DNA of 64,000 nt from the NCBI GenBank assembly GCA_030272155.1, contig CP126196.1:4154001-4218000 (forward strand). Reading direction: 5' to 3'. Below the pieces are notes generated by a model. It worked only from the letters and a program-made list of their open reading frames with translations. It was not told the origin of the DNA and ran no database searches. Shown one piece after another: positions 27,295 to 53,146 of the stretch (positions are counted from its first letter, which is position 1; every line of letters begins with the position of its first letter). The DNA is from Tetradesmus obliquus. Its lineage: Eukaryota > Chlorophyta > Chlorophyceae > Sphaeropleales > Scenedesmaceae. Made by a program: the position numbers and the translations under genes.

Positions 27295-28650
27295 TCAACC
27301 CCTGTCCGACGCCGGCTGCTGTTGCTGCTGCTGCTCCCCTGCTTGCCGTTCCTGCTGCCGCTGCCGCAGCTGCTGCACCAACTGCTCCTGTTTCACCCGC
27401 AGCGCCTGCTCCTCCTGTGCTGCTGCCTCTGCAGCCAGCCCGTGTGGCAGGTACGACTCCATGCTGCGCAGCAGCGCTGCATTGAAAGCCTGCGGCTGCT
27501 CTAGGAAAACGAAGTGGCCACTGTCTGGAACAATTTCCACACGGTGGTCTGAGGCAACCTGCAAGCAGTTGAGATGCAAGTGCCACAGGTACAGCAGCAG
27601 CGGATGTCATGAGAGAGATGCCCTGGAATTAGCAGATGCAGGAGCAGATCCCACGCTAATGCTGCGCAGTAGCACGGCATTAAGAGGGAAGGCCTGCGGC
27701 TGCTCCAGAAACACAAAGTGGCCGCTGTCTGGCACAATTTCCACTCTGTGGTCTGAGGCAACCTGCAGACCATGATAGCAGCAGAAGCAGCAGCAGATGC
27801 CGTAAAAGGACTGATTCAAAAGCTTGCGGCTGCTCTAAGAACACAACGTGGCCGCTGTCTGGCACAATTTCCACTCTGTGGTCTGAAGCAACCTGCAGAC
27901 AATGAGGACACAAGATCCAGCAGGCACAGCAGGTGCAGCAGCAGTGAAAGACCTTTCACTGGTCTTTCCTGTTCCAGCAGCTGCCTGAACAGACGACCAA
28001 CCATATGCTTGCAACACCCTCCACCTGCTCTGCTACTCGCTCAAATACCATATGGCAGCGGAGTGTTTTACACCCCCATCCCATCCCGCCCCTCCTGCCA
28101 CCGGCTCAGCCCAGACACAGCCCAAACATACCTTACGGGGCCGTATCTGGTCCAGCTTGTCTGCCAGCGCCTGGCCTGCTGCGGGCTGCATCCAGTCATG
28201 CTCCTCAGTATAGAGGTATTCGGCACCCTGAGCTCAGCCGGCTGCAGCTACGCTGTTAGATACTCCTTTGCTCATGGTATGCAGACATTGTGATGAAGTA
28301 TAAGCACAAGGGGCGGCCTCTAACCTCTAGTAGCTGATCCACCCACCTTGCGGGGCCGTATCTGGTCCAGCTTGTCTGCCAGTGCCTGGCCTGCTACGGG
28401 CTGCATCCAGTCATGCTCGCCGTATATGAAAGTGACAGGCACCTTAAGCTCTGCTAGGCGCTCCTGCAGGGGCGCATGTGCCCAAGCACCTGGGGCCTGC
28501 AGCAGCAGAAGAAGAACAGCAGCAGCAGCAGCAGCAGCAGCAGACATCAGATGAAAATGACAGGCACCTTGAGCTCAGCGAGCCGCTCCTGCAGCAGGCG
28601 CATGTGCCCACGCGCCCGGGGCCTACAGAAAAAGGAAAATGACATGCAGC

Positions 28651-28688
<38 letters not shown>

Positions 28689-29101
28689 TAGGAGCAGCGG
28701 CATCAGATGAAAATGACATGCACCTTGAGCTCCGCGAGCCGCTCCTGCAAGGGCGCATGTGCCCATGCGCCTGGCACCTGCAGCAGCCCCAGCAGCAGCA
28801 GCAGCAACCGCAGCAGGCAGGAAGACATCAATGACAGAGGATAGCAGAAGGACAGTCTGCATGGCAAGGACTCTGCGCACACTGATGCTGTCGTGACTGG
28901 CTGGTTTAGCAGCAGTGCCGGCTGTGTGCTGACACGCAACTGCAGCCGTGCAACACATTGTCAGCCTAATGCTTAGAGTGCCTCCTCACCAGTATGTGCC
29001 TGAGTGCGTATTCCCCGCTGCCGCGTGCTGCTGCAATGTGGTAGAAGTAATCCCTGAAGGTGGATGACTCAGCAGGCTCAAGCGGCATGCCTGCATGCAG
29101 C

Positions 29102-29163
<62 letters not shown>

Positions 29164-31630
29164 ATAGCAGCAGAAGCTGGGTGAACAACATGGTAGAAGT
29201 AATCCTTGAGGCTGGATAACGCAGCAGGCTCAAGCGGCGTGCCAGCACTCAGTCTAAAGTAAGTCAGCGCTGTAACTCAGCGGCGCGCACACGCAAAGGT
29301 CACGCGCGGGTCGGGGTGAAGGGTGTGGTGCCCTAGCACCTGCTCTCTGGCACAGCGATGATATCCTACCGGAGTAGTTCTGCCTTGTAACCAACAGATT
29401 CCACACAATCAAGCCATCAATCACATTGCTCCAAACACAAACAATCTCTTGAAGCAGCCATCCCCGCTCACCATGCATGCTGAAGCACCCAGTCACATAC
29501 TTCCCCACCAGGCCTGGCCCCCACGGCCCCAGCGCCCTGATCAGGCTGAAAGGGGTGATGCCGCTGCCCCAGGCGTGGGCCGCCAGCTTGAACAGCTGCC
29601 CTATAACAGTCAAGCAGTTCTTTTCCTGGATGCTGCTAGCGTGGCGTGGATATGAACACAACAGATCCCAGAATCCCACAAAACCTGCTCAAAACTGAGG
29701 GTAGGGTCAGCCATCCCCGCTCACCGTGCATGCTGAAGCGCCCAGTCACATACTTCCCCACCAGGCCTGGCCCCCACGGCCCCAGCGCCCTGATCAGGCT
29801 GAAAGGGGTGATGCCGCTGCCCCAGGCGTGGGCCGCCAGCTTGAACAGCTGGCTGCGCAGCGACCAACTGTCAGTTACAAAGCGGCTCTCCCAGCCTTCT
29901 GGTTTTGTAGGCTGCAGCAGCATAAGACATAACACACAAGAGTCAGCACGATGTCCGAATAAGTGAACAGCTGGCTGCGCAGCGACCAGCTGTTGGTGCC
30001 TTGGTAGGCTGCAGCAGCATCAGACATGACACACAAGAGTCAGCACGATGTCCGAATAATTGAACAGCTGGCTGCGCAGCGACCAGCTGTCACTCGCAAA
30101 GCGGCTCTCCCAGCCTTCTGGCTTGGTGGGCTGCAGGTGAAACAACACGAACGACAGCATTTATCATGGGACTGAGTAGCCAGGAGTCAGCCCTCTGGGT
30201 TGGTAAGCTGCATGGGCAACATGCATATAAGACGAGGCCGGTCAAACAGGCAGGCAGGCAAACATGCAAGCAGGCAGGCAGGCAGGCATGATGCTTCGGT
30301 TGGCAGTGTGCCAGCTTGAACAGCTGGCTGCGCAGTGACCAGCTGTCAGTTGCAAAGCGGCTCTCCCAGCCTTCTGGTTTTGTAGGCTGCAGCAGCATAA
30401 CACGAAAGACACGGCCTTACAGGCAGGCATATTGTTTGAATCGGCGCTTTGCCAGCTTGAACAGCTGGCTGTGCAGTGACCAGCCGTCAGTAGCAACGCG
30501 GCTCTCCCAGCCCTCTGGTTTGGTGGGCTGCAGATGCGTAAGAGAGGGTGAGACATAGGTCATCACGCACAGCCGTAAACGCAGGCGGGTAGGAAGGCAG
30601 GCAGAAAGGCAGGACAATCTGCCTTGGTTGACAAATGTACAAGCCCTCCGAATTCATGGGCAGCAGATGTCAGCCTTTTGAACAGCAGGCAAGCAGGCAC
30701 TAAGAACCAAAAAACCCCAATCCGAACCGAGTTTCATATACTGCAAAGACCCTGCAGCAGTGCTTAGCTACAGCAGCAGGCCATATCAGACAGCGAGGCA
30801 TGCAGCAAGCTGACATGTCAGGGCTGCTGAGTGACTGATGCATGCTAGTACATTACATTACATTACATTACATGCTCCACTCAACGAGGAGTGGGAACCC
30901 CAGTCAGGAGCCAACGAATCAACGAAAAAGTAATCGCAGGCATCAAAATTGAACCCTACACAGCAAAATGTAGTGTGCAAAGCACAGCAACCATTAACTG
31001 CAGCATACTCACAATGCCTGCAGGTCCCACCAGCACCAGGTGCTGCACCTGCTCCGGGTGCCGCAGCGCATAGCTGGCTGCAAGGTAGCCGCCTACACGC
31101 GGCACAGCAGAACAGCAATCACAACAGCAGCAAGCAGGCGCACAATACATCTGTCAGCACTTTTTAAAAAGGTGCGGCAGTAATCGTAGGCAGGTGATGC
31201 ATGTCAATGCCATTGCACTGCACAGCACGGTAAGCTGAGCTGTCAGAACATTGACAAGACCAAGCCGCGCAGTACCAGCTGGCCCTGCTTCAAGTAGTGC
31301 TTTGAAACAAACATACAAAAACAAACATGCTATTGTCTGACCAAATATTGCTCACCTAGGCTGTGCCCAACCAGGATGAAGCTGTCCAGGCCCTGCTCCT
31401 GCCTCCATGTGTTGAGGCTCTCCAGGAAGAAGTCCTCAGTGGCAGGCCTGTCTTGTGCAGTGAACGGCGGCCGGCCTGCACACAAATAGAGATCGTGCAT
31501 AATCACAGTGTACTTGGGCCCAGTCATACTACAGTGTTGCACACGGAGCATCAGACATGAGCATCAGACATGCACCGCAGCTATTCTGTCGCAACCACGA
31601 AGTGTGGAAGCTGATACAAGACGTTGTCGC

Positions 31631-31684
<54 letters not shown>

Positions 31685-32674
31685 CTGCACACCTGAGAGG
31701 CCTGTGCCCAGCCAGTCAACGGCAAAGAGATTGAACACACGCGCCAGCCCGTCAAGGTTCCTGCAGGGTACGAAACAGGTGTCAGCATACCGGCAACCAG
31801 CAATATTGGTGCGGAGACACAATAGCAGATGTTTGCAGGACGGATGCCGAGATGGGCACGTGCAACAATGCGACAAATGCCATTGCTGCATTGCAACGGC
31901 GGGGATGCTAGGCTGCATAATCGGCTGCTGGCTGTCAAGGTGAGTGCGCTCAGTGCACCGCATGGTGCTGACTCAGCAGCTGCACTGCACTTCACTGCAC
32001 TGCAGGGCACAGTACTTCCACTGCACTGCAAACCCACTGCAAACCCATGCTTTGCTTGTCAGGGCAGCTGCTGTACCGAGCTCCAGCTGCTGTGCTAGTA
32101 GCAAGCTGCCGCACCTGAAAAAGAAGCCTGATCCAGCTCCATAGCCAGGCATGAGCACCATTGCAGGGCCTTTGACCGGCTCGTTGCCGCTGCTGCTGCT
32201 GTTGGTCAGCGTGTGCATGTACTGCTCGGGCCCAGGGCCCACTGGCACATCCTCCACCTGCCACTTGCTCCTGCGTTACAACAATGAGACGTATAACATC
32301 GGCGTGGACATGAACAACATGAAATAGTTAAAGTCAGGGGAACACACACACACACACATTGCATGAGGAGGAAGCTGGCCTCAGAGTGCATTGCTGCGCT
32401 GCTGACACTGACGCTGATCACCCTGCTGTGTGGAAGCCTGAGCAGTTCGATGAAACCTACAGCTGACACATTGCTCCCAACACTGAAAAATAGCAGGTTC
32501 AGCCAATGGCAGAGCGCCATGCATGCATATGCTAATACACACAGTTCAGTGGACCTGCATGAATAATGTGCAACCAGCTGGCACCCAAGCAGCTTACCTG
32601 AGGAGGTTCAGGATGCCTCGCTCTGCATGCACAGCCTCCTCTTTGCTGGTAGGCCGCCAGCGTGTTACTTTCAT
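27295..32674 (-). CDS. CGI58: CGI-58/ABHD5-type alpha/beta hydrolase, 9 exons, 400 aa
   Basis: Exons in transcript order: 32598-32674, 32115-32270, 31693-31760, 31356-31475, 31013-31092, 29725-29911, 28990-29090, 28347-28496, 27295-27558; they total 1,203 bp in one frame. Family landmarks in order: RWRPTS N-terminal helix; LMPGYGAGSGFFFR (oxyanion loop, with P where plants have H); VDWLGTGLSGRP; nucleophile elbow GHSLGG, split by an intron after GHSL; RHPEQVQHLVLVGPAGI; LGPWGPGLV; VTFIYGEHDWM (likely Asp region); DSGHFVFLEQP (catalytic His). Plant CGI-58 has lipase/lysophosphatidic-acid acyltransferase activity and controls lipid droplets, so a lipid-turnover role is inferred. A Q/E-rich coiled-coil-like tail of about 50 residues follows the His. 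The start could lie further upstream if 32674 is internal. Exons 6-9 each have extra partial copies. Confidence 0.8.
27660..27762 (-). repeat. Partial copy 'b' of hydrolase last exon
   Basis: A second acceptor-anchored copy, 130 bp after copy a and 204 bp before the complete exon, reading VASDHRVEIVPDSGHFVFLE and on to LLRSIS before it loses similarity. It could act as an alternative last exon because its frame continues to a stop (27607-27609). Confidence 0.85.
27837..27892 (-). repeat. Partial copy 'a' of hydrolase last exon
   Basis: Begins at CTGCAG|GTTGC and reads VASDHRVEIVPDSGHVVFLE before diverging. It is anchored on an intact AG in the right phase (0), but F of GHFVF is V and the C-terminal half is missing. 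Confidence 0.85.
28132..28777 (-). repeat. Four copies of hydrolase exon 8 (one complete)
   Basis: Copy 1 starts at 28777 and copy 2 at 28622. Both keep the acceptor and the PGAWAHAP...LAELK part but hit a stop soon after 'V.VIFI'; copy 2 also has an extra base. Copy 3 is the complete exon 28347-28496. Copy 4 (28132 to about 28250) keeps the DWMQP...DQIRPRK half and a GTATG donor but has a broken frame. Copies are separated by (CAG)n tracts on the plus strand. Confidence 0.85.
29190..29246 (-). repeat. Partial copy of hydrolase exon 7
   Basis: Reads GTPLEPA.....KDYFYHV, matching the first half of exon 7 (28990-29090; GMPLEPA.....RDYFYHI). The acceptor AG has become TG, so this copy cannot be spliced in at the homologous site. 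Confidence 0.8.
29472..30527 (-). repeat. Six copies of all or part of hydrolase exon 6
   Basis: Acceptor-anchored 5' halves (PTKPEGWESR...SLRSQLFK) start at 30527, 30386, 30130 and 30008 (the last with an internal deletion). The complete exon is 29725-29911. A 3'-half copy with its own AG and donor is 29472-29600 (LAAHAWGSG...LGPWGPGLVGK), symmetrical 1-1 and 129 bp. Two neighbouring copies share an AGTCAGCACGATGTCCGAAT spacer, showing very recent ~97-bp tandem duplication. Confidence 0.88.
31640..31682. repeat. (CTG)n tract
   Basis: About 14 uninterrupted CTG units in the hydrolase intron after exon 3. It is antisense to that gene, unlike most acceptor-proximal tracts in the window. Confidence 0.95.
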
Positions 32675-33493
32675 CCACCTGTTATAGCAGCATGCATGAA
32701 GCCGTAGCCTGAGCATGCGTGGCTATCTATGGACAAATGTGCAGGCTGGTGACGCCGCTGATGCATTGTTTATTCAAGCTGAGTATTGCACGTATCTGGA
32801 TGGCATTGATGAGGGTGCAAGGCAGTGCAGCAATGCTTGGAGCAGAAGCCATCAGGCCTGCTGCTGGCAGCAAATGGCCTGACATCACAAGTCCTCACCA
32901 GGGCAGCTGTGGTGCCTCTGCGGAGGTGACCAGCTCTGCTGCCGCATCGGCTATCCCGGAGTCTTTCATATTCGCACGAGGCGCTGCTGATGTGGTAATG
33001 AGCGAACTGTGTGGACAGGGTGCTGCTCTGCTGCTGCAACGGATACTGGCTGTTTGGAACAAAGTGCGAGGCACGCCTCTGTTAGCGAAAGCGTGGGAAA
33101 ACATGAGATCATATTATTTCACGGGCGTCGATGCTGCCAGCCGTCTTGAACGTGCTCTGTGCATGTGTTGTCATCACTTGAAACCCTTCTCTCGCTCGAA
33201 GACCCTTCGAACACAAACGTGGCATCGGTATGCCAAATTCGATGATATAGCATCCTTTTTTGCTAATTTCAGCTCATTTGCACGCTTTGACTTCTGCCAT
33301 CTGAAAGAGCCTGGCCGAAGGTAGTCGCACGCTGAATTGCTTGACGTAAAAACATGTTTCTTGCCTGGTTTACCACGTTGCCATCTTTCAGGTTGTGCTT
33401 ATTTCGCATCGGTGTAGCTTAGCACTTGACATGCTTGAAGGTTCATAAAGTTGACTTCAGGTTTGAACTGGCTGTCAACACCTAAACCTGGCT
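32675..33493. promoter_or_regulatory. Shared intergenic region of two divergent genes
   Basis: The hydrolase start (32674, minus) and the TMEM237-like start (33494, plus) face away from each other, so this 819-bp stretch should contain both promoters. A 201-codon open frame (32719-33324, +) lacks family similarity and was not called. No specific factor sites are claimed. Confidence 0.45.
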
Positions 33494-35503
33494 ATGTTTC
33501 GACGTAGAACCAGTCAGGGGGCAGGAGGTGATGATTTTGATGCTGGCACCGCAGCAGCAGCACCAGCAGCTGCGCCTGAGCCAGCTGTCACAGGCAGCGC
33601 ACAACAGCTACAACAACAGCAGCAGCAGGGTTTGGAAAATGCCATCTTAATGGCCAGACAGCAATCAAGACCTAAAAGCAGCGATCCTTCACAAAACGAT
33701 ACGGGAGCTTTACCACGGCTCGGCCAACTGGCACCACTGCGCACGCGCGTGCAACAGCCTGCAGCTGTGCAGTCTCAGCAACCATTGATGCAGCGGCAAC
33801 AGCAGCATCAACAAACACTGCGGCAGCCACAAGTACAGCTTCAGCAAACTGCAGGTCAGCAGCAGCAACAGCAGCAGCCACAGCAGGGACAGTTATCCAG
33901 ACAGCAAACCCCTAAGGAGCCGGCTGCGCCTCTGCCTCAGTTCTCAGTGTTCAGCAACCCCTTAGCTGTCAGCAGTGACCCGCCGAGCACCCAGCAGCCA
34001 GTCTGGGACGCCCGGCAACCTTCCAGCTTGCAGGAAACAGCAGCCGCGCCAGTAGATGCACCCATAGCTGTGGAAAGTGCAGCAGCACACAAACAGCAAG
34101 ATGCAGCAGCATTGGACCCACCAACCCTGGCGCATGCACCTAGCAATCCTGCAGCCGCAAAGGCAGCTTCAAACAGCAGCATACCCAGCAGCCCCCTGAA
34201 ACACAGCAGCTTGCTGGCCACCAAAACACTGCGGTTCGAGGTGCAGCCTGCAGCAGAGTACCTGCAGCATCCGCCGCTGCAGCATGATGGCGTAATAGAC
34301 TACAACGGCCATGACCAGGAGCGAGTAATGGGCGAGCAAAAGGCCGCAGCTTCACAGCAGCAGTACTATTACAACCAGGTGGGCTTTCTGGTATTTTGGT
34401 ATTCTGTCTCTCGTTTGCATGAAGCGGTGCGGCAGTATATTGTGATGTGCTGGCAGCAGTGTAGCATAGAACGTTCCAAGATGGCATTTGCTGCTGCCCT
34501 TGCATGTATCCTGCAGCATATGAGTGGCACGTACTGTGCACCTAGCAGCATGCAAGCGACTCAGGATCACCTATGCAACAACTGCAGCACCAAGAACACC
34601 AGAATGCTGCAGCTTTCTCCTCACCAGCAGCTCCATGACCCAACCTCATGCTGCTTGCCGCACTGGTGCTGGCTGCTTGCAGGGCACCGGCCAGCTGTGC
34701 CGCGTGGGCGAGGGCGCTGACGCGACGCGGCTGGCGCACCACTACCTGGAGGACTGGAACACGGGCGAGTTCTTCATGCTGGCGGCGCCACGCAGCGGCT
34801 GCATGGCCTGGTTCAGGTGTGGGCGATGATGATGTTGATTGCGCAGCTCACTTGTTGCATAGCTGTGACCGCTGCCAGCTGCATGATCAGAGCGCAAAGG
34901 CGGTTGTGCGAGCGGGCTATGTATGTACAACACGCTGAGTGTGCAGTGTCGATTGTGTTGCCATGTGCAGACGCAAGCCCGCCGCCGTGCCTGCCGGCTG
35001 GAGTGGCGCTGCGCAGGAGCCCAGCCTGCTGGCCAGCCTGGGCGAGTTCACTGAGAGCATGGGCAGCGCCATGGCAGCACTGGGCATGTTTGCGCAGGTG
35101 GGATGCAGCAGTTGCAGTTGGGATGGGAATCTCGCCTTGCAGGAAAGGGGTTTTAGGTGGTATTGAGAGCATGGGCAGCGCCATGGCGGCACTGGGCATG
35201 TTTGCGCAGGTGTGTTCGTATGTGCAGCAGCAGCTGAGATATGCAAATGGCCTGGCAGGGAAGGGGGGCCATGTAGCACTAAGGGCTTGGCAGCGCCATA
35301 ACAGAGCTGGGCATGTTTGCGCACGTGCGCTGCAGCTGGTGTTGTGACGATGACCTTGCAGGGAAGGGAGTGCGCGTGTTGTTTTAGGCTGTTTCTGGCT
35401 CACAAGCTGAGCAGGGCGTGGTGTGTATAGCGTGTGGAAGCGAAAGTGCAGTGACATCAGGCCCTGGAGGCATGCGGGCTGCATAACAGTATTCAAATCA
35501 CGC

Positions 35504-35543
<40 letters not shown>

Positions 35544-37122
35544 AGGGTCTTGCTGGTGGGCTGGCGCTGCTGAGCTTGTTCATGACATACCTACAGTACA
35601 TCACAGCAGGCAGGGACGGCTTCCTGGCATACTACTCGGCACACGCACAGGTGCGCAATCAAGCCTGGGCAGCTCCTCATGCATGCCATGCTGCCTGCTG
35701 GCAAAAGCACCGCCCATCTTCTCTCGAATGGCCTTGCAGGCCGCGCTTGTGTGCCCAGCAATGGCTCATAGCTGCTCAAGCATTTGGTGTGTCAAGGATT
35801 ACAGCATGTGCACCTAGTCCTGCATATGCCCTTGATATTGGCTGATGCTGTAATCTTCCTGCCGGTCAGATGGTGAACCGGGCTTTCTTCACGCTCATCA
35901 GCCTGTCATTGGTGTCGGCATCATCCCGCCTTGCCTACGACCAGCTGGGAGGCTTCAGGCCCAGCATTCTCAGGTGCGCCTGGCACAGCACGAAGTGGTT
36001 GTTTGGCGCTGTTAGCTGGATGAGACCTAGCAGCTGACGCAGTGCAGACACATGATGCCTGTGTGTCATGCTACCAAACAACTGACAGGGTTGCTTATCT
36101 ACATGCATGTAGCTAGTTGCCCATTGCTTCATGCTGCTGCAGGCTGCGCGTGTCGGACGGCAGCGTGCTGGCGCTGTACATGCTGGCGTATGTGGCCTTC
36201 ACCTCACAGGGTGGAACAACTATATGCATATAACTGCACGACCGTCAATGACATTTTAAATTGCATTTGCACGTAAGCATTCTAACAAAGCAGATACCGG
36301 TGTGGCTGCAGGCTGCAGGTGGCGGACGGCAGTGTGCTGGCGCTGTCCTGCTGGCCTGCACGGCCAACCTGCTGGCCATGACATGGCACAACCAACTGCA
36401 ATCGTTTGACTAGGTGCCAGTGTTTGCTGCTGCAGGCTGCGCGTGGCGGACGGCAGCATGCTGGCGCTGTACCTGCTGGCCTCTGTGTGGCTCTTTCACC
36501 TCACTAACAAAACGCCAATGCGTGTTCATGGTTGCAGGCTGCGTGTGGCGGACGGCGCCGTGCTGGCACTGTACCTGCCGGCGTACACGGCCAACCTGCT
36601 GGCCATGCCATGGCACAGCTGCATTCAGTTGACTAGATGTCAATGTTTGCTGCTGCAGGCTGCGCGTGGCTGACGGCAGCGTGCTGGTGCTGTACCTGCT
36701 GGCCTATGTGTGGCTCGTTCACCTCACTAACAACACGCCAATTTGTGTTCATGGCTGCAGGCTGCGTGTGGCGGACGGCAGCGTGCTGGCGCTGTACCTG
36801 CTGGCGTATGCCGCCAACCTACTGGCCAAGACATGGCACAACAGCATCCGTTTGACTAAACGCCCAATGCTTTTGCTGCAGGCTGCGCGTGGCTGACGGC
36901 AGCGTGCTGGCGCTGTACCTGCTGGCGTACGCGGCCAACCTGCTGGCCACGCCCATTGATGACCAGCTCACCTTTGAGGCGCGGCGCGACGTGGGCTACT
37001 GGGCGCTGCCGCTGCAGCAGGCCTTTGTGAAGAAGGTGAGTGGTCTATTTCAACCTGTGAGAGGACACGAGGAGGGTGTGGCACAGCTGCAGGAATCTGT
37101 GCTGATGCTGAGAAGTGGTGTG

Positions 37123-37167
<45 letters not shown>

Positions 37168-38525: not shown

Positions 38526-38530
38526 TGTAA
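38526..38530 (+). terminator. TGTAA poly(A) signal
   Basis: TGTAA lies 165 nt after the TGA stop of the TMEM237-like gene. Confidence 0.45.
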
Positions 38531-39139: not shown

Positions 39140-42100
39140 TCAAGGAAGGGTGTTAACAACTGCCCCATCTTCCAAAAGAGATTCTGGTGCAACCCTGTAT
39201 AAGCTGGTCCAACTCTCATCCAAAACACCTCTATACAACCCACATGCATCTACACTGCTGCTGCTGCTGCTGCTGCTGCTGCGCATGATGCGGACCAAAA
39301 CACAGTCGTCACTCTGACTGCACGCTTCTAAGCACTTGCCAACACTCACTTTGCCTAACTCTGCCTGAAGCTCCCCTACAACCAACCCCTCTGGAACATA
39401 CGAAATTGCATAATCCAGCACGGCACCCCCGCCAAAAGCCTTGAACCCTAATGCAACCTTACTCTGATACCAAGCACCTCCATTGCTACTTGATAAGGCC
39501 ATCAACACTTGACAGGATGGGGCTTCCTTGGGTGCATCGCTTCCATGCCTCAACATAATGCAGCCTGGGCCGCACTGCGCCTTGCAAGCATGCATTGACG
39601 CTGCACCAGCAGGCGCATTCTGCCAAAACCCTTCATTGCTGAGTGGTATGTGCACAATTCTAGAAGATTCCTCATCAGGCCATACTGACACGCATTCTGT
39701 TGCACTTTCTGCGCCTCTCTTGCTGGTGGAGCCAGCGTCACAGCTGCAGCAAGGGGCTGTTGAGCCGCCAAAGGAAAATGTGCCGTAGCTGCACTGAGCG
39801 CAAGCGGGGCCGCCGTAGCCGGGAAGGCACACTGCAAGGCGGGAGTGTAAACAAGCACAGAAACGGTGCAGTGTCAGGAGTCCCAAGTTAGCCTTGTCAG
39901 CGCACGGCATTAGAGGGCAGCATGTGCAGACCTGTGCAATCTTGTGTGTGCTTGACGAGAGTGTGATTTATTGGCGTTGGATAATATATTTGAGCGCAGA
40001 TATGGCTGACCTGCAATCTGTCCGAGTTACAATATCTCAGCAAACAATATGCAACGCTGCTTTGAGAGCTGGCTGCAAGTTCTGGAGCAAATGAAAGCCT
40101 CCCCACACCCTGCGTAGCGTAATCGCGCACCTCTGCAGTCGCTTGCGCTGTCCTCAGCACTTTCAGCCGTTGTCCAGCCCGCAGGACATTCAATGCACGC
40201 TCCATCGGCATCACCCGCACTCCCTCCGGGCCCATAAAACCCCTTGGCACATGGCTGCGGCAGCCCATTTCCTGCCATTGCCCACCCGGGCTGCACCACA
40301 CAGTCTTTTGGGCTGGTTGAGCCCTCAGAAAGTGTTGTGTGGGCTGCAGGACATGGCTTGCATGTGCGCTGCTGAAGGCCTGCTGACCACAAGCCAACTG
40401 GGCAGGGCTGCACTACTCCATCAGGGAAGAAGCCCTTGCCTGGTAGTGGCTGGCAGTCTGAGATATCGGTGTAACCGCTGCTTGCGGGGATGCCGGTGAT
40501 GACATCAGCTGTGGCAGTGTTGCCGGGGCAGGGCATGCATCTGCAAGCACAATGAGTTGTGACATCATGCAACAGGGGATCATGGTACAGCAACGCAGCA
40601 GTAAATTAACCCCTGAGGACAGAAGTTAATTGCTCAAGGCATGCCGGCACAGAGCGGCTGCTGCAGATGTTGCCACAGAGGCTGCTGCTGCTGGTGCTGC
40701 TGCTGCTGCTACACGCAGCTGCCTTAGCAACGTGGCTGTGTAGTTGCGTGCACATCATTAGCTCACCTTGTAGACCGTGTGTCATAGTTGGGCGCTGACC
40801 TGCCAAACATGCCCTGCACACACATCACTGCAGAGACAGCGCCGCTGCCCTCTACGCGCACGATGCCAAAGCCTGGGGGCACGTAGCAGGCATCTGCGCT
40901 GACTGCGCCATCGCTCTCTGTGAGCAAGCCGTCGCCACACTGCAGACGGGCGGGCAGGCAGGCGGGCAGGTTGGCAGGTGAGCGGGAGAGATCATGTGAA
41001 GAAACGAGTCATCATCCGGCAACTTCAGACGTCAATTTGCCTTTTATACTCTAGCCGTATGATGCGGAGTGCATGACATTGCAGCAGCTTCAGGAGGACT
41101 GCTGCTGGCCGTAACTGCTGCTACCTTGACTGTGTTACACTGTCTCCTCAACTGGTTGGGTTGTTGCAGTCGGGAAGGCAGCCACTCACGCTGATGCAGC
41201 GGTTCAGATTCCAGCCATGCTCCGAGCATTTAGGCTAAAGAGCAGCATGCAAATGGGAGTTCCGCAATGTAAGGGGTCAGCATTGTAAACCAATGCTGAG
41301 TCAGCAGCAGCCACTCACGCTGATGCAGGGGTTCAGGTTCCAGCCCTCCTTGTAGCTGCCCACAGGGCAGTCGCTGATGCTGCCATCACCAGGCAGCAGC
41401 TGCATGCCGGGCGGTGCGAGGCACAGCGCAACACCATCTGCCCCGGCCTGCACAGCACATCATGCTCTGTTAAGCGGTTGCTTGGGGTATTGTACAAACC
41501 TTTGCTGCTGCTGCTGCTGCTGCCAGCCGTAACCCTCACTGTACATACATTTGCAGCCTTGCCGATCACCTGGTCAACTCTGCACTGGGTGGGTCGGCTG
41601 CTGTTGATCATGTGCCACCTGCTGTCCATATGAAAAGCTAGGGGCAAAGGCATGCGCCTTCTTGCTGTGGTGATGCCGTGACAAACATGCAAGCTTGCTT
41701 TTTTTTTTCTGGCTAGGAGGGGCAGACATGTAAACAGAGTGAGTTGCAAGCCTGCTCCCACCTGCTCTGTGCGTGCTCAAAATGCCTCAAGCAATGCGCC
41801 TGCTTGCTGTGGGCCTACCATGTTGAACATGCAGACATGCGCCCCTTTGGACGGGAGGGGCTGATAGATGTGCAAAAAGTGCGGCAAACATACAAGCCTG
41901 GGCTGACCTGCTCTGTGCGTAGCCCATGCGGGCATGACGTGCACTGCTGCTGCGTTGTCTCCCCATCTTGGTAGCTATTTGGAGGACACAACGCTGCTGC
42001 AATGGTTGCAACGAAAGGATCCTTCAAACTCTGCAGCCCAGTTGAGGAGTTGGTGCTGCTGTTACCACCAGCAGAACTGTCCAGATTGCCAGTCTGCTGT

Positions 42101-42230
42101 GCGGCTGTTCTGTTTGACTGTGTGACAGTGAGGTGGTAGCCGCGGGTTGCCAGCTTGCATGCCCCAATGCTTGTGCTGGCCTCATCTGGTGTTGTGAGGC
42201 CAGCCTTGCAGGCAATGCTGTACGTTGAGT

Positions 42231-42300
<70 letters not shown>

Positions 42301-43904
42301 GAGCTGAGGAAAGAGACACAGCAGCCACTGTCAGCCTGCCAGGATCTGGTTGAAAGGCTGTAAATCTATGTCTGTGCCACATGCATGGAAGAAAAGAACA
42401 GCCTTCCTCAAAGGATAACTCTTCAGACTGTTTGCTGGGGCTGGCAGGACATACTAGATACAACACATTTGTGAATGGTGCACAACCAAGACTCCATTTG
42501 TGTCCATCTATTAAACCACCCAATAAGCAGCTGCAGCAGCAGCAACGGCAGCAGCAGTAGCAACAGCAGCAGCAGAAGCAGCAGAAGCAGAAGAAGCAGA
42601 AGAAGCAGAAGAAGCAGAAGAAGTTCTTCTGCTACCCACCAGAAGCTCAGCGTGTTGAAGCTGTCTGTGTAGGTGCCCCTTGGGCACTTCTTGGCAGCAC
42701 TGTTGCCCATACAATAGCCGGGTGGCGCCACTACAGCAGATGGTGGACGGCAGGGGTGCAAATGAACATACATATGCAGGAGTTGATTTTAAAATCAACA
42801 GCTCTGTCCTTATCTGGCCCAGGCTGATCAGCAGACAGCCTGTAGGGTGTCGAGTGATGAGAAGCTGCAATGCAGTGAGGTGCCACAGCTCGCTGACAAA
42901 TGCATAAGCTCAGTCTTGGCAGCAGCTGGCACAGCATGTGCATGTGAGTTTTGTGCTCACCGCACTGCGAGTAGGCCGTGGATGCTGCCTGGACAGTGGT
43001 CAGCCCTGCAGCAGCAGCAGCCGCAGCAGCAGCAGCGTGTCGATTCCAACGTTTTAGCCATGACACCACCACAACTTGTGTTGAAGTGTTGATTCGCGCA
43101 CAAAAGCTGCTGTGCCGGACACATGCTACACACGGAGCGAAATCTTGTCGGCCAAGCCGCCACGACAGATGCAGTAGCATCAGCAGCAGCGGAGCAGCAG
43201 AACTCTTTCTGCCTCCCACCTGGCGGGCACTGCTTGCATCCCATGCTGTTACCGCCTGCAGCACAAAAAAATGTATAGCAGCGGGAGGAGTCAGCAACTG
43301 CTTGAATGTGCCAGAATGCGCCAGAGACCCTTTCAAGGGGCTGCCAGGTGAGGCATGACATCCCAAGCATCATGCCCACTGCATTGCCTTGGCCAAGCCC
43401 TGCAAAACATGATGGCAAGCTGCTGCTGCTGTTGCTGCTGCTGCTTTTGTCCATCTCAGTTTCAACTGCCAGGTTGGAGCGGCTGTCACCGCATCGCTTT
43501 GCGGCCATGCAACAGCTGTTGTGCTGCTGTGGTTTCAAGCACCCTTCCAGTGCTGCTTTGCTGCTGCCTTGCTCTTTTTTTTACCCTGTTGCACTGCCTT
43601 CAAGCACTTCTACCGTCCATCACTTTTGGAAAAGCTACAGCCCGCACCCAACTTGGTTGTATCTGCCAGGGGGACACACACTAGCCGCCACAGCCAGCCT
43701 GCCATCAGCGCCCCTGTAACTGATCCTGCCATGTCCTGGCTTTGTGAAGCACTGATCAAGCGTCCTAGCACCAACCAGTATGGTGGCTAGTCCTGCGGGG
43801 CACTCTCCGGCTGGCAGGTCACCTCCAGAGCAATACTGGCCTTTGGGGCAAAACAGGCAGTCCTGTGCGCTGGGGGACCAGAACCTGCCAGCTGCACACT
43901 CTGT

Positions 43905-43941
<37 letters not shown>

Positions 43942-44538
43942 TAGCAGCAGTGGGAATCTGATCAACGGAGGACAGCAGCTGCAGGACGCCTCAAACTTGA
44001 TGGCAAGGTGCACAAACATCTTGCAACAGCTGGGTTTGGTAAGTTGGTACAGAGTGCACAGGGTCAAACTGACAGCAGGAACAGGCAGAGTGTCCCGGGA
44101 CCATAAATCGGCAGTATCATACTGAACTGCAGCTGCCAGCTAGTGGTGCTTAGCACAATGCAACATATGTGCACAGTGATTTCTGTTTGCATCAAGCATC
44201 TGCTGCCTTGCTCGTGCACGAAATATCCGTGCCATCGCACAAACTGATGTTCAAGCAACAAGCACTTACTCACCACATGTTGGTGTGTCAGCTGGTGTCC
44301 AGGCTTTCTTCAGGCGGTAGCCTCCAGTGCAGCCCAAACATACCAGAGTCGTAGCTGCGCTGCTGTCTCTCGTTTTCCTTGCGTAAACGCATCTGTTGCA
44401 CGCTCGGTGCACCTGGCTGCAGAGCTCTGGGCTGCCAGCACCATTCGTGCTCAGCGTGCTGCTGCTGCTGTTGAACGGAGCTGCCAGCGCCAGTAGAAGC
44501 AGCAGGTGTAACATGTATAGTGTAATATTGCTGTTCAT
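39140..44538 (-). CDS. Secreted Cys-rich (GCC2/GCC3, ephrin-receptor-like) protein 1, 10 exons, 797 aa
   Basis: Exons in transcript order: 44274-44538, 43648-43900, 43220-43245, 42961-43005, 42640-42730, 41908-42217, 41319-41447, 40767-40939, 40131-40540, 39140-39831; the sum is 2,394 bp in frame. An N-terminal signal peptide (MLHLLLLLALAAP) is followed by repeated ~40-residue Cys modules with CP.G.Y, C..C..GLTT and S...C, as in the GCC2_GCC3/ephrin-receptor-like family. The last exon holds CLPGYGGPACAQC and then a ~200-residue domain with ACKAQCGPGCIM, KAFGGGAVLDYA and CLEACSQSDDCVLVR, which resembles two PAN/Apple-like units. No TM segment follows. A micro-exon of 26 bp and its acceptor are the least certain. 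It is a tandem paralogue of 48900-53492. The function (wall or surface recognition) is unknown. Confidence 0.75.
41187..41222 (-). repeat. Donor-anchored copy of the end of exon 41319-41447
   Basis: WNLN.CIS|GTGAGTGG is repeated about 130 bp downstream (minus sense) of the complete exon end. Another short donor-anchored echo of exon 41908-42217 (CGCACAGAGCAG|GT) lies near 41761-41775. Confidence 0.75.
42231..42300. repeat. (CAG)n tract at an acceptor
   Basis: Sense to the minus-strand gene this is (CTG)n placed 13 bases before the acceptor of exon 41908-42217. It is broken by one TAG and otherwise pure. Confidence 0.95.
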
Positions 44539-47500
44539 GGCTGTTTTAACGGCGTGCAGCGTGCTGCGCTGCCTGCCAAGCGTGGCCTCATCTCCACGCC
44601 ATCGCAGCTACGATGAGCTGCTGTCACCTTGATCGGGGCACAGGCATAGATCACGAGCTTTGGTCGGTTCGTGCACAATATGGCTTGACAAGGGACCGAC
44701 TGGCAGGCAGGCAGTTCAACAGAGTTAGTGCTGCAGCACAGGCAGCTGCCAATAGACCAAGAACCCCTATGTACAAACAGAGCAAGTTGTGAAGCGTCTC
44801 ACGGATATGCTAGAACAGTACCCTGGGAAGTTGTGGTGTGGTTTGGTTGGCGTACTGCAACCTCCGGCGAAGTTCACGTTTCTTGGAAAACCCAGGCTGC
44901 CCGCTGTCACTGTACTTCATTGTATCATTGATGCTTTATTGCTTGAACAACGCGTTCCAGTAAGCGGGATGGACAGTGTGATTTAGCGACTGGTCAAAGG
45001 TGTGATGTGTGATAAGCCTCTCGCCGGCTGCTTTGGGGGCCTAGCCCTGCGTGCGATGCCTGAAACGGCATCTCCGCAACCGTGACAATCTTTTAAAGCG
45101 GTTGTTTGACCGTGGAACATGCAGTGCGTGCGCTGTTGGTTGGTTTCCCGGCACGCTGCCCTGCATCAGGCACAGCAGCTGAGCACTGCTGCTGCTGGCT
45201 GGCAGGGGCACTGCTGGCTGGCAGTGGCTCAGCTGCCAGGCTGTGCTGCTGCTAGCTTGACAGTAGCAAGACATCATATGTGCAGTCCTTGCATCCACTT
45301 CATGCTGGCATGTGCCAAGTTCATATCATTAACTCTGTCGCTGAAGGTGGCGAGCTGAGCGTTACCAAAGCTGTCAAACAGAAACAAAACTGTCTCCCAT
45401 CATAACCTGGCAGGCCTGGTCACACCCAGGTCCTGAGCTGTGCAGGATACATGCCGGCTCTTATAAGATACACGCTGGCATTGTTACAGATAAGTAGTCG
45501 CTGCTGCACCACTAGGTGGCAGCAAGTGGCTGTATACTGATGATATCTTTCAAAAGGGGAAGGACAGAGCCACAGCAGTAAGCAGCAGGGCAACCCTCAT
45601 TTAGTGATGATGGAATTGCGGTACTGCAGAACTAACAGTAGTCCTGTAGATGTGCCCATCACCCCGCCGGCCATCGGCTAACAGCAATGCAGCCCATGCC
45701 CAGCTCTTCTGGCAAACCAAGCCATGTGTATTTCCTGGCAACAGGCAGACCCCTCGCAAAAACACAGCAAGCTGCTGTATAAAACAGATGGCAAATATGC
45801 CAGGGGTACTGGTACGCCAATGGGCAACAGATATTCCCAAACACAACCAAGCGTGGCCAAGCGAGAGCATATGCAAGCACAGACCTCAACTGCAAGGACC
45901 CCAACACTACTGCAGTGCATACACAGCCGACCAGAATCCATCTTCCTGGCTCTTCAAAAGCGTCCTGGGAAAGCACACTCAGTGCAACTTGGTACCCCAA
46001 GTAGCAAGGAAGGCTACCTGGAAAGAAGCCTGCCTCTCCCTTTTTGTGCTTCGCATGTGCTGCACAAGCATCCAAGGCTGTACAAGATGGTCATCATGAA
46101 CACGGCAAGATCCCTGTCAGCAGTAGTGCATACAGCACAGCGTGGCTCCTGATATGCTTCGTGTTGCGCCCAATGCGCCAGCAAGCAACACCATGAATCA
46201 GCTTGCCAAGTGCATAACGCACAGTGAGAAACACAACACAAAGCAACAGAGCCAAGCACACGGTCCTCAACCACAAATCAAAAACTGCCAGCAGCCTCAG
46301 CCAGCAAGTGAAAAGGCATCTGTTCATGCTGTAAAAGCCCATTCAGGCTATCATGGGTAAATTCAAAACTACTTTTTGATCTCGCTTGCAGGCAGCTGCT
46401 TTTAAGCTGCAAACCAGCCCTGAAATCAAGCCACCACACATTGGCAGCAGTTGGCGACGCTTGTAACACAGCTGGGTAACAAGCAACCTAGTGTGTACAA
46501 GTGTCCCAGTTTCATTAGCTGGTCAAAATGTGCACAGCGCACCAACACAGCAACACCAACAACACCTCAAAGGCTGCGAGGACCATTCAACAGCAGCACG
46601 CGAGCTGCAGGGCTCAGCCGGTATCCACACAGCAGCAACTGTAGAGCCTATTCATTCACAAATCCTGCACACTCCTTGCAGCATAAAACCCAGCCTCCCA
46701 CAAGGTCAAGCTCGAAAGCAGACTCATATCACCATGCTTTGCGGCTGTGTTTTCCTGCAGGCAGCAGCAGTGCTGTACTCTGCGCCAGCACCTCAACCAG
46801 AGCAGCAGCAGAAGCTGCTGCATTTCAATTGCAGTCAATGTCAAGTAACACCAGAAAGTGCAAGTCCTGCACGCAAGGTCAGTTCTGCCGCAGTTCACCG
46901 TATGCACAACCAACAGCTGCCAACACAGCTGCAAACCCACGTAAGCATGCAGCCAAAAAGCAGCAGCCGCCACCTTGCTGCATACTATCGAGCATTCCTG
47001 CAGTCCCCCGCAATCATCTGTATCATTGCTGCCATGCAAGGCATGTGTATATGCATGCAGGAACAGTCCTGCAGCCCTCAGCTGAAAAAAGCTGCACCCT
47101 TTCCTCGTAGTATGGCAAGCAGCCGCCACCTTAGATGCAGCAGCAGTCCACAGCATGCAGCTCGGCACAGCACAGCAGCTGCCGGCTTGCTGCAAGCCTT
47201 CATTCCATCTGTCACCTGCAGTCCCCCGCATCATGTGTAAAACCCTTCCATAGACCGGCACAGACGTGCATCCTGCTCAAAAGGTGATGCCTGACCGTCA
47301 CCAGCCTTCAATCTTCTGGCACAATGTGCAAAACGTCTCAAGCAAACCAGCAGCAGTTAGCAGCAGCTGCTGCTTGTCTTACCAAGCCACATACAGCCAT
47401 TCCTCGGACTGCCTTCTAGACAGCCCTCACCAGTATGCAACCACCTCGTTTAAAGACCCCCCTCATACGAAGGAGGCAGCCACAGTAAAAGCAAAATACC

Positions 47501-48899
47501 TTTGCTTGATCTGCCGGCTGCTGTTCTCCCGCACTGCTGCTCAAAACCCACGGTCACTTCAACAACACGACACCAAAGCAGCTGCCTGCCAGCACTTCAA
47601 AGGTAGCAGGGAGTCAGCATGCCAGGATGTGCCATCTTTAATTGCCCATTGTAGGAAAACCAGACCGCCATGCATCGCTGCGATGCAGTGTTTGCAGGAA
47701 ACCAGCGCAGCACACATGCCTGCATCTTCAAAAGTTCAAACAGGAGAGTGCTGGCTCAGTCAAAAACAACCCGTTCAACTGACACCGCCAAATGAAACCC
47801 TAGCTGGCAGCCATGCCAATGCTTGCAACGTTCTGAGCAGCACACTCAAGCCACAAAGGCGCAACAGACGGAACAGAAGCGACCGCCATGTGGCGCAACA
47901 GCACCGCACACGCAGCAGCTGTGGCCCAATCAATGCATCAGCAGTACATGTGCAAAACCGCAGTACATGTGTGCACAAGTTCAAATGCAGGCCGCAAACC
48001 CAATGCACTTCGCCTAGAGTGTGCTGCAGACGATGCAGATGCAGCCCAACGATGCAATGCAACTGTGCACTCTATCTCAAAAAGAAGGGTCAAATATCAA
48101 ACCATGGCAGCTCAGCGTCAGAAGCAACTCTCCTTCCCCTGCCACGAATGCATGGGTGGTAAAGCTGTTCAAACACAGCAGACCATCAACGGAGTCCAAG
48201 TCATGCAACTGCTGTAGCACAGTCCTGTGCCGCAGCCCGCATGCAGCACCCTGCAAACTGTTCCGCTTACAAAAGCTCAGCAGCAGTGTGTGCTGCTCCA
48301 TGCTGCATGCATGTGCTTGCAGAAGCGCCTGTTTTTGCACTTTGCAACAGAACGGCACCAACATGCTGGCATGCACTCTGCCACAGCCATACATGGCTGT
48401 AATTGCAAGCAAACTCCCCAATTTTGAACATGAAATGAAACATTGCATCATACGTTGTGTGCATAACCCTGCTGGGTGGTGACACCCGCTGCCGCCCCTC
48501 TCCCATGTGACTTTAAACCATGTCACATCTGCAATCACCGCAGCTGCAAGTCTGCCAGCACATGCTTGCGACAGCTGTCACAAGCTGCTGCAGCAGCAGC
48601 AGCTGCCAAAGTCAACAACATCCGAGTAAGGCGGCAGCCGTGGCTGTACCCAAGTGCCCAGTAGTAAGCAAAGCTGCACGGTGCAATGCAGCTGCACACT
48701 GCAACAGTGCGTGTTCAACTGTAGACACCAATGCAACCCCTGTATCTGTCAGCAACAGTGTGTCTTTCACTGTAGAGCCAGCGTATGTGAATGTCTTCGT
48801 GACTGCATCACAGCGTATCCACACGGTGTGGGTGCATGCCCAGTGTAAGTGCATCACAACGTATCCACAAGGTACCGGTGCATGACCAGTGTGACTGCA
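44539..48899. other. 4.4-kb spacer between the tandem Cys-rich genes, no gene supported
   Basis: Long open frames exist (46491-47240 and 47266-48162 on plus, 46656-47261 on minus), but they overlap in several frames, have no recognisable motif and have no flanking splice pattern. A minus-strand frame at 46094-46342 has two hydrophobic stretches and could be an exon of an unknown membrane protein (weak). TTGCTGCATACT/CCTGCAGTCCCCCGCA segments near 46960-47010 recur diverged near 47110-47235. The 3' UTR of the 48900-53492 gene should lie at the upper end; a minus-strand TGTAA lies near 48267. Confidence 0.4.
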
Positions 48900-49584
48900 T
48901 CACAGCGTGTCCACAACAAAGCCATCACTCAGCAGCCGCTGAGGCGTCACCTGATATGACGTCACCCAGTCCGCATCAAGCTGCCCACTCAGCAACACAC
49001 AGCTGTCCAGGCTGCTGCTGCTGCTGCTGCTAGCGCTGCCAGCAACACGCACCAACACACATGCCTCACTCCTGCTGCAAGCTTTCAAGCAGTCAGCCAT
49101 TGTTACTTTTCCCACATCCTTAATCTGCACCCCCAGATCCAGGCTTGCAGGAACGTAGTAAAACGCATAGTCCAAAACCGCGCCGCCAGAGAAGGCCTTC
49201 AGCCCTACCGCAGCCAGGCTGCTAAACCCTGACGAGCCAGCTGTCAGCTCCAGAAGCACCTGACACTTCTTGTCACCCGCATTATAACGATACATGATGC
49301 AGCCGGCCCCGCACTGCGCCCTGCAAGCTTGCTCTGTAGCATCGCCTGCTGCCATATCTGTCCACGCGCTTTCATTGCTGATGTGAACGTGTGTGGTGTA
49401 GCTGTCCCTGTCCTGCGGCCACACTACCACACACTGCAAGCTGGAATCGGCGCCACGGGCGCTTGTTTGGCCTGCTCCGCAATTCCTGCAAGCGTCTGTT
49501 GAGCCGCCAAAGGAGTATGTTCCATAGCCGCATGGCTGGCACTGAGCGCCGCCATAGCCAGGGCTGCAGACTGAAGTAGTGTCA

Positions 49585-49643
<59 letters not shown>

Positions 49644-51963
49644 CAGCAGCAGCAGCACAGTTAGCATGGCTTGCAGTGACGCGCGTGTATTACAGGAATG
49701 CACAGGGAGTGCATGGCACTGCAGCAGCGGCGTCAACAGTACCGGAATATGCACACTAGTAAACAGCAAGCCGCCTTTCACTTGCACCCGACACACATAT
49801 CCTGCTCCATATCTCTGTCACAGCAAAGTAAGCACGCAAACACCCGACAAGCAACAAGCAGCACTGTCCACGCACTGTTGCAGTCGTCAGCGCTCTCTGC
49901 TGCAGGCTCCTGTGTGGTGAAGCCCTCAAGGCAGGTGGTACAGGAGCCGCCGGGGGCCCCTGCTGATCCCCCAACAGAGAAGCTGCCTTGGCTGCAAGGC
50001 TGGGGCAGCCCCCGAGAGCCCTGCACAGCCCTGCAGGCAGCAGAACACAGCACAGGGCAGCACAAAGCAACATGTCACTTACAGGCCACGTGTTATTGAT
50101 GGGCAGCATGTCCTTGGCAGGCCTTGGCTGCAAGGCTGGGGCAGCCCCCGAGAGCCCTGCACAGCCCTGCAAACAGCAGAACACAGCACAGGGCAGCAAA
50201 AGGCAGTATGTCACACACAGCTGATTACACAACACAGATGCTGCAAGGCCGGGGCAGCCCCCGAGAGCCCTGCACAGCCCTGCAGGCAGCAGGATGCAAC
50301 ACAGCAGAGTGCAGCAGAGTGCAGCACAGTACAGCACAAGAGACGTTGTGAGGGACTGGCTCAGAACAGAACACAGCAGCCGTACAGTGCATGACACAGG
50401 ACACAGCGTGCACGCCAGCACCTGCTGCTCGAGTGCAAGCAGCAGCTTTACGTCAACACTTCGCTTGAAAGCTTGGTTGCTGATTGCAACCCCTTCATCA
50501 ACAGCAGTAGTTCAAACACAACATGCACAATGAGTACAACATATGGGCAACGTAGCAACCGCGCAACTCACCAGTCGGCTTCCACCCAGCACTCACTTGA
50601 CGACACAGCTCGGAGCATAACATCAACCAAGTTTGCCCAAAACAAGCAAAACCTGCGAACCAGCACAGCAGCTCACCAGCCGCCTTCCACCCAGCACTCG
50701 CTGGATGACACAGCACAGAGCATTGCATCAAACAGCTTCTTAAATACAAGCCTACTTCAAATGCAGCACAGCAACTCACCATCCGGCTTCCACCCAACAT
50801 TCGTTGGACGACACAGCTCCCTCTGCTGCTGTGGTGTACATCGCCGCGCACGCCCGGCACACCCGCTGCTGCCCGCCGGCACTCCAGCTGCCCACCATGC
50901 ATTTCTCAACTGCCCCTGCTGCTGTGTAACCCCAGCCCGGCAGAGGCATGCACGCCTGGCTGCTGGTGTAACCGGCCGCCGCGGTGACGCCACTCTGTAT
51001 GTCAGCTGTTGCAGTGCCTTCCGGGCAAGGGATGCAGCGAGTAGTGAGCAGGTCATATGAGGCGCTGCTTTGGCCGTAGGTGTTTAAGACACACATCACT
51101 GCACTGCGGACTTTTGTGATTGTGTTGATTTCAATGCCCCAGCCGGCAGGTACGAAGCAGGCATCCAGTGCGACTGCGCCTGTGGACTCTGTCAGAAGGC
51201 CCTCGCCACACTGCAGGCAGCAGCAGCAGCAGCAGCACACAGAGCGAGATAAGTATGTTGTAAGGGCCACCGCTTTTAAAAAGCCCCCACTCAACGCACA
51301 ACACCGGTCATGCAGGTAGGCAGTCAAACACTGCGCAGGGAACCATGCTTCATCCATCATGGCACTTTAATAACACATAATCAGCTACAAATGCTGAGTC
51401 AGCAGCGTCCACTCACGCTGATGCAGGGGTTCAGGTTCCAGCCCTCCTTGTAGCTGCCCACAGGGCAGTCGGTTACATTCTCCGCCCCATTCAGCAGCTG
51501 CACGCCTGGCGGTGCCAAACACAACACAACACCATCGGCCCCAGGCTCCCGAGTTGTTAGGCCATTGGGGCACGGAGTGCAGCTGGTGGCTTCTGATTCC
51601 TTGTCCTGATAGGTCCCAACAGGACAGGGCACTGCCACATACTCAGTGTATGTGCCATTAGCATCGCCTGCTGCCGCTGCTGCTGCTGCTGCTGCTGCCT
51701 GTACTGCGTTTGGTTCTGGCACTGCTGGCACGTCGCTCGGCAGCTGCTCGCCAGCTATGTTATTTGGCAGCTGAACCTCCGTTACATAAAACCCTGCCTT
51801 TGCAAGCCTGCATGCTGACGATGCACTGCTGCCCTCATTTGCAGTGGTGAGCCCATTGCGGCAGGGGGTGCATGCGGGTGCGTCGTTGAAGGCGGGTGTG
51901 TAGGTGCCGCGGGGGCAGCGCAGGCCGGAGCCGCCACCCATGTAAGAGCCGGCTGGGGCAACT

Positions 51964-51996
<33 letters not shown>

Positions 51997-53146
51997 GCAG
52001 CAGGGTTTAGGGGAGGCCAGCAGGGCTGAGCAGCGGGTGCCGTGGGGCAGCGCATGCCTGAGCCGCCACCCATGTAGGAGCCGGCTGGGGCAACTGCAGT
52101 TCAGGAGAGCAGTTGATGACATCAGCAGCAGGAGCAGCGGCAGCGATCAGAAGGTGTAGTAACAGCGTGTTGAAGCACCACCGCAATGGTATGTAATGCA
52201 CGCCTGTTTGTCTTTCAACTTGGGCATCGAACATCTACTTTTGTTAACTCACCGCAGTCCCTGGCTGACTTGGCTCCTTCTCCTGCAGTGGTCAGGCCCG
52301 ACCCGCAGCGCTGGCAGGGGCTGCTGTTGCCGCCCGCTTCATAACTGCAATAACCTGCCTGGCAGAGCTGTGCCTGCACAAGCAGCTGCCCAACCCTCAA
52401 GACGCTACTAACGCATGCTGCGCGCTGCCTTGTTGCCTCTGGCCTCCCCCAAAGCAGCAAACAGTGCACTCTTTCACACTACTTTAACACATTGACTCAC
52501 CGCAGTCCCTGGCCGATTTGGCTCCCTCTCCTGCAGTCGTCAGGCCCGACCCGCAACGCTGGCACGGGCTGCTGTTACCTCCCGCGTTATAACTGCCAGC
52601 CTGGCACGGCTGCGCCTGCACCAGCAGCTGCCCAGCTGCTGTCTTATTCACAATCCTGCCGAAGCCGGCAGTTGTCAGGCACTGCTCAAAAGAGCGGGCA
52701 CCAGTCATAACTGTTGCGAGGCCTATGGGGCAGCTGCTAGGGGGTGCATTGCCGCCAAGGCACACCATTCCTTTGGTGCAGATGCTGCAGGCGCCGTCGC
52801 TTGCAAAGCGGCCTGAGCTGCAAGCTGCAGGGGTGAGGATGGGAAATGGAGGTTAAAAAAAGTAAGCAGCGGCGGGCAATATTTGAAGAGTTTGCAGGTG
52901 ATGTGTCAAGCAGCGTGGCAAGACACCTGCTTGTGCTGCAGTGCAACGCTGTGTGCATGTGACGCAATGGATTGCAGCTGGCGGTGATGCAAAACTAGGA
53001 GACTGATGCCGAGGAAATGATTGAATAACACATGCTTGCAGGATAGCTGGTGAGGCCGCATGTGGCTGACGATGGCTGCTGCATGTTCATCATCCAAAGC
53101 GCACCCCAGGGGTGGGTGATGCCCTGCTGCCGCCTACCCCACCGCA

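Follow-up and report, generated by a model that had tools for sequence, protein, structure and literature searches.

A 64-kb window of the Tetradesmus obliquus genome (G000:C6:4154001-4218000; positions below are those of this whole stretch unless a contig is named) carries a gene for an ABHD-type alpha/beta hydrolase (Pfam Abhydrolase_1), a TMEM237-like gene whose match to PF15383 (25 bits) falls below the cut-off of 28.1, and two adjoining predicted cysteine-rich (Cys-rich) genes on the minus strand (39250-43508 and 48900-56022), a piece of the second of which matches PF07699 Ephrin_rec_like. Exons of these genes are accompanied by partial copies on one side of a splice site. Our preferred reading, to which we assign a probability of roughly 0.7, is that recurrent tandem duplications of about 130 bp persist if they lie across one splice site, splicing then hiding the copy, and that a surplus of duplications near splice sites adds to this effect. 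The partial copies in the window, with the evidence for each, are:

27644-27767 and 27819-27914, minus strand: two acceptor-side copies of hydrolase exon 27295-27561 (scan; tblastn of protein P0001 matches the exon and both copies)
28130..28238, minus strand: donor-side copy of hydrolase exon 28347-28496 (self-comparison; tblastn)
28551..28815, minus strand: two acceptor-side copies of hydrolase exon 28347-28496 (self-comparison; tblastn)
29186..29252, minus strand: acceptor-side copy of hydrolase exon 28990-29090, acceptor at 29090 (alignment; tblastn)
29455..29612, minus strand: donor-side copy of hydrolase exon ~29728-29911 (self-comparison; tblastn)
29964-30139, 30302-30400 and 30443-30541 (span 29964..30543), minus strand: three acceptor-side copies of hydrolase exon ~29728-29911 (scan; tblastn)
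35164..35368, plus strand: two donor-side copies of TMEM237-like exon 34971-35097, donor at 35097 (self-comparison)
36120..36845, plus strand: six acceptor-side copies of TMEM237-like exon 36882-37035 (self-comparison; protein P0241 has the exon once)
41162..41221, minus strand: donor-side copy of the Cys-rich exon ending at 41319 (alignment)
50121..50323, minus strand: two acceptor-side copies of the Cys-rich exon with its acceptor at 50030 (self-comparison)
50563..50751, minus strand: two donor-side copies of the Cys-rich exon ending at 50780 (self-comparison)
52036..52144, minus strand: acceptor-side copy of the Cys-rich exon with its acceptor near 51961 (alignment)
52231..52392, minus strand: donor-side copy of the Cys-rich exon ending near 52501 (the choice of the real exon between the two copies rests on the gene finder)
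10289..10510, plus strand: two acceptor-side copies of exon 10564-10901, array spacing 116-120 bp (self-comparison)
3513..3628, plus strand: donor-side copy of exon 3148-3262 (alignment)

An initial annotation of this DNA had listed copies at the hydrolase exons, the TMEM237-like exons, the Cys-rich exons at 50780, 50030, 41319 and 51417, and an exon near 10284-10640. All were recovered except at 51417, where the scan found no local copy; the exon end at 41319, which is alike in sequence, has one.

We analysed the window together with 200 kb from contigs C1 and C2, in segments picked at round coordinates and blind to their content. The resulting 264 kb come from a genome of 104.66 Mb in 17 contigs, and all counts below describe these three regions of one assembly rather than the genome as a whole. 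Using BLAST self-comparison with microsatellites masked, we identified 127 local direct matches (50, 64 and 13 in the window, C1 and C2, respectively), compared with 1, 1 and 0 inverted local matches; a reversed-sequence control yielded no match within the equal distance band and one at any distance. The direct matches group into 59 clusters (window 19, C1 27, C2 13). The smallest spacing per cluster has a median of 130 bp (quartiles 117 and 155 bp), with 44 of the 59 clusters spaced 100-160 bp. A second detector, independent of BLAST, recovered 54 of these clusters and added 9; by its count, 46 of 72 clusters have a spacing of 100-160 bp, and the 60-80 bp range is empty. None of the five clusters that it missed is of the type that spans exactly one splice site. 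In ten of its clusters the smallest offset is 13-47 bp; two of these additionally hold a ~160-bp unit, which leaves eight short-unit arrays. A lower bound of 82 bp on unit size was discarded as partly a BLAST artefact, short offsets being merged into the main diagonal.

In the window, a 132-bp satellite of 7-9 copies, without a predicted exon, occupies 19067-20228, so that the ~130-bp unit occurs away from splice sites too. Two neighbouring long pentanucleotide arrays, (GCTGT) with ~57 copies and (CTGCC) with ~142 copies, occupy 14317-15364.

Banded alignment on unmasked DNA revealed that many pairs are contiguous tandem copies, while others align over less than their spacing. Dispersed templated copies, which BLAST alignments shorter than the spacing had suggested, were rejected on the strength of the contiguous pairs. 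In two-copy clusters with splice sites, identity is 76-100 percent for exon parts and usually lower for intron parts, and this divergence makes simple assembly duplication an unlikely cause of most clusters. One proposal was that CTG/CAG microsatellites at intron ends seed the copying through slippage or microhomology. CTG repeats abound in this genome, and the CTGCAG motif is its acceptor consensus. Microsatellites of at least 12 bp, however, occur in 20 of 55 duplicated spans, below the number in random border-spanning intervals (mean 29.9, standard deviation 3.4). Nor did nine junctions inspected by eye display a constant motif. We consider seeding of this kind barely credible.

Exon borders outside the checked genes are predictions of a purpose-written, self-trained gene finder, which converged on an acceptor of CTGCAG/G and a donor of CAG/GTGAG and called 820 splice borders in the sample. 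For the placement test, all copies in a cluster but the one most needed by the gene model were hidden, the DNA was re-annotated, and the features spanned by the kept copy were read. The null consisted of 1000 placements of identical lengths at random positions. Observed and expected numbers for the 59 kept copies were:

one acceptor: 15 observed, 6.7 expected
one donor: 17 observed, 6.5 expected
several borders: 11 observed, 3.7 expected
gene end: 2 observed, 1.1 expected
exon only: 6 observed, 12.3 expected
intron only: 7 observed, 24.2 expected
intergenic: 1 observed, 4.5 expected

Exactly one splice site is therefore spanned in 32 of the 59 cases, compared with 13.3 by random placement, and duplications are denser there than in purely intronic DNA. 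Expressed as a share of one-site and noncoding units together, the value is 32/40, against a null of 0.32 and a maximum of 0.56 in the 1000 placements. For C1 and C2 together the share was 24/28 (null 0.32), and among two-copy pairs of at least 85 percent identity it was 13/17 (null 0.24). The recurrent process enriched at splice sites that the initial annotation proposed is thus borne out, both for the sample as a whole and beyond the window, by counts that exceed random placement. Some clusters that the placement rule classed elsewhere (in the window, 3192 and 49985) touch a splice site in the unmasked alignment, and all three new units of at least 80 bp from the second detector span one splice site. 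None of the eight short-unit arrays from that detector does so; one touches a predicted gene end, and two are members of the intron-only clusters.

These counts bear on an explanation by survivorship alone, in which duplications fall anywhere, only one-site or noncoding ones persist, and the anchoring is a remnant of selection. It accounts for the scarcity of exon-only units (6 versus 12.3). It likewise accounts for three short-unit arrays inside predicted exons (C1 9611, C1 34611 and C2 60382, sample coordinates), whose units of 21, 27 and 24 bp are each divisible by three, the pattern that selection against frame-shifting duplications within exons should leave. However, it predicts more noncoding than border units, whereas 8 noncoding units were observed against 28.7 expected (two of the 8 being short-unit arrays) and 32 border units against 13.3. 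We simulated neutral decay and BLAST detection under assumed substitution and indel rates, with 40 replicates per age and class, and found that intronic pairs are lost sooner by a factor of only 1.32. This raises the expected share to 0.38, under which the probability of 32/40 is 7e-8. Survivorship by itself is thus an unlikely explanation.

The preferred reading shares the weeding step and adds to it. Many short local tandem duplications would arise in T. obliquus, with units of ~80-250 bp, mostly 100-160 bp. Where a unit lies across one splice site, the full exon and its working site would stay intact on one side, and the truncated half-exon would land inside the intron and leave with it. 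Because the half-exon would be spliced away, the change would be close to harmless and copies could accumulate. Wholly exonic units, by comparison, would break the reading frame and be weeded out unless in frame.

We next consider where in the unit the splice site lies. In 34 of 35 measured cases its relative position within the unit is 0.18-0.73; the one outlier (1.40) is a misalignment and was set aside. The initial statement that copies begin exactly at splice sites was too strong, as the units cross the site and include intron flank. The standard deviation of the position is 0.138, compared with 0.280 for simulated uniform placement under an equal limit, and none of 20,000 draws was as narrow, although by a Kolmogorov-Smirnov test the distributions differ weakly (p 0.06). 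This halved spread raises the possibility of targeting, in which a process linked to transcription, to splicing or to chromatin at exon edges would make ~130-bp copies centred on the border and thereby keep supplying introns with spare donors and acceptors that are intact. Selection may account for part of the narrowing, as an acceptor needs its branch-point region; no such reason is apparent for donors. We hold targeting to be possible but doubtful.

A solid copy was present on the intron side of 45 of the 820 predicted borders (23 donor, 22 acceptor), amounting to 80 copies and to 80 of the 102 solid matches. Splice sites are retained in most of them: GT in 32 of 38 donor copies and AG in 37 of 42 acceptor copies. 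Where a copy aligns across its entire splice site, its score equals or exceeds that of the real site for 19 of 27 donors and 10 of 28 acceptors. This retention also bears on intron gain through duplication of an AGGT-containing exon segment, by which a duplicated stretch of exon becomes a new intron; tandem genomic duplication is reportedly a source of introns, as described by Rogers in 1989 and by Hellsten in 2011 (ATP2A1). Such gain would likewise hide exon-internal duplications, and a few introns may show it: the donor side resembles the acceptor side of its own intron in 5 of 344 introns of at least 125 bp at a score of 22 (permuted mean 1.7), and in 1 of 344 at a score of 34 (permuted 0.1). 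Yet these numbers are small, most donor copies keep the donor and most acceptor copies the acceptor, and even rescue of every exon-internal unit by this route would give an expected share of 0.54 (p 0.0006). AGGT-type gain is rare and not the general route, and as an explanation of the copies it is very improbable.

Three genes could be compared with proteins. Without its partial copies, the hydrolase aligns over its full length with P0001 (91 percent) and with P0003 and P0004 (both 74 percent), every exon being present once. The names of these proteins (GHRQ, GHUV and GHRR accessions with open reading frame labels) resemble those of translated transcript assemblies; P0048, from the GHRQ set, departs from the common hydrolase sequence upstream of the duplicated exons. 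Searching the window with P0001 by tblastn matched each exon and, in addition, extra partial copies within introns. The three copies at acceptor 29911 read RFATD, RFASD and RVATD, whereas the real exon reads RFVTD, P0001 RFASD and P0002 (Scenedesmus sp. NREL 46B-D3) RFATD; the copies thus seem to retain an older residue. For the TMEM237-like gene, P0241 was the sole match of the protein search and carries the repeated exon once, and tblastn with it again detected extra partial copies in introns.

The third gene, on C2, encodes an aspartokinase-homoserine dehydrogenase and corresponds to the T. obliquus protein P0121 (A0A383V4M3), to which it is identical at all 575 ungapped aligned residues; we read the 34 gap columns as exon-call errors of the gene finder. 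A further C2 stretch was mapped by tblastn of P0121 with a 99 percent match. These matches place the source of the DNA in T. obliquus or very near it. P0121 carries each exon once, and tblastn with it located these partial copies in introns, every one of which duplicates the end of an adjacent exon:

C2 20029-19967, 17911-17816, 17741-17679, 16605-16558 and 15129-15085: partial copies of aspartokinase-homoserine dehydrogenase exons

With each exon present once in the proteins of all three genes, the copies look like intron sequence that is removed by splicing, and in this strain they are probably not spliced into mRNA. Of the two consequences foreseen by the initial annotation, the spare splice sites are there, as the retained GT and AG dinucleotides indicate; the optional exons and new modules do not appear in these proteins.

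Several observations count against the preferred reading. The surplus over purely intronic units is left unexplained by weeding or detection alone. Preferential starting of duplications in or beside exons, where GC is 62.4 percent compared with 54.5 percent in introns, is the simplest addition that would account for it, and we infer that the surplus beyond weeding reflects duplications that begin preferentially in or at exon edges. Taken alone, C2 (13 clusters) has a one-site share of 7/10 against a null of 0.31 with a maximum of 0.89, which is not significant, so that enrichment there is only suggestive. On the exon side lie 22 of the 102 solid matches, in part the result of a wrong choice by the gene finder of which copy to keep in the hydrolase array. 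That gene finder also missed most of a TMEM237-like exon seen by tblastn at 35867-35974, and it predicts a coding share of 34 percent, compared with 15.7 percent tabulated for a T. obliquus draft (PMC5966456). Exons are thus probably over-called, in which case real noncoding DNA is more plentiful and the dearth of noncoding duplications more marked, not less. Finally, P0002 has 17 extra residues exactly at acceptor 29911, the site with three copies in the window; a decoy acceptor may have misled the gene model of that protein.

The state of the copies is a further point of this kind. We compared 47 of the 80 solid copies with their real exons by codon position, having removed 15 borders by judgement because their arrays resemble real exon repeats. 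A copy-against-copy version of the test was set aside, as such arrays contaminated it. Differences amounted to 6.7, 7.3 and 19.0 percent at codon positions 1, 2 and 3, and to 18.2 percent in the intron parts. For a noncoding copy of an exon under constraint, the rate of differences at position 3 is expected to reach about double that at positions 1 and 2 and no more; the observed skew lies modestly above this neutral limit (p 0.006). Moreover, no stop was gained in the 47 copies where about 5 were expected (p 0.009), and indels numbered 17 in exon parts compared with 48 in intron parts. Preservation is therefore somewhat too good, hinting that some copies are translated or used, or that some are real exons that had been hidden.

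The same skew, missing stops and few indels, together with the retained splice sites of similar strength (19/27 donors and 10/28 acceptors at or above the real site), are what one would expect if the copies were alternative or optional exons, coding sequence under selection. However, most copies are truncated and have one splice site; P0001, P0003, P0004 and P0241 have single copies; several would insert a repeat into the alpha/beta-hydrolase or the homoserine-dehydrogenase part of a bifunctional enzyme; and the excess over the neutral limit is modest. We judge functional copies quite unlikely as the general explanation, and retain duplication with survival across one splice site, plus a surplus there, as the reading that best fits the sample.

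If this pattern is general, it represents a frequent class of mutation that gene annotation could take for extra exons. It would also continually provide strong but idle splice sites beside active ones, a natural test of how the spliceosome ignores decoys, as well as a route for intron growth and the possible birth of new exons. The surplus at splice sites turns the question of how short tandem duplications start into one that is directly testable.

Among the titles and abstract openings searched, which left most subscription literature outside, we found no report of genome-wide partial exon copies straddling splice sites. The view that no named phenomenon describes the pattern was nevertheless too strong, as PMC4974935 describes individual instances in which tandem genomic duplication took in intron-exon structure, among them the potato RdRp (Ma 2016), where a 3' splice site was part of the copied unit.

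The T. obliquus copies can be set beside other systems. Introner elements place one sequence in many introns across the genome; with a single 401-bp query over the hydrolase copies, the matches listed elsewhere in the genome covered only its simple-repeat part (query 228-294), in a search that skips common words. Minisatellites (variable-number tandem repeats) likewise form head-to-tail arrays, which in some of the T. obliquus cases exceed two copies, but T. obliquus has mostly a few copies of a ~130-bp unit over splice sites, and none of the short-unit arrays in the sample straddles one (0/8). Tandem exon duplication and mutually exclusive exons have in common local direct copies of exons with splice sites. 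They duplicate a complete exon with both sites, however, whereas most clusters here do not (32/59 hold one site and 11/59 several borders), and the proteins compared in the checked genes are without the copies. Introns formed by tandem genomic duplication (PMC4974935) share with them a short direct tandem duplication involving exon sequence. Those are single cases that yield a new intron, whereas in T. obliquus there is generally no new intron but a partial copy inside an existing one, at 45 of 820 borders.

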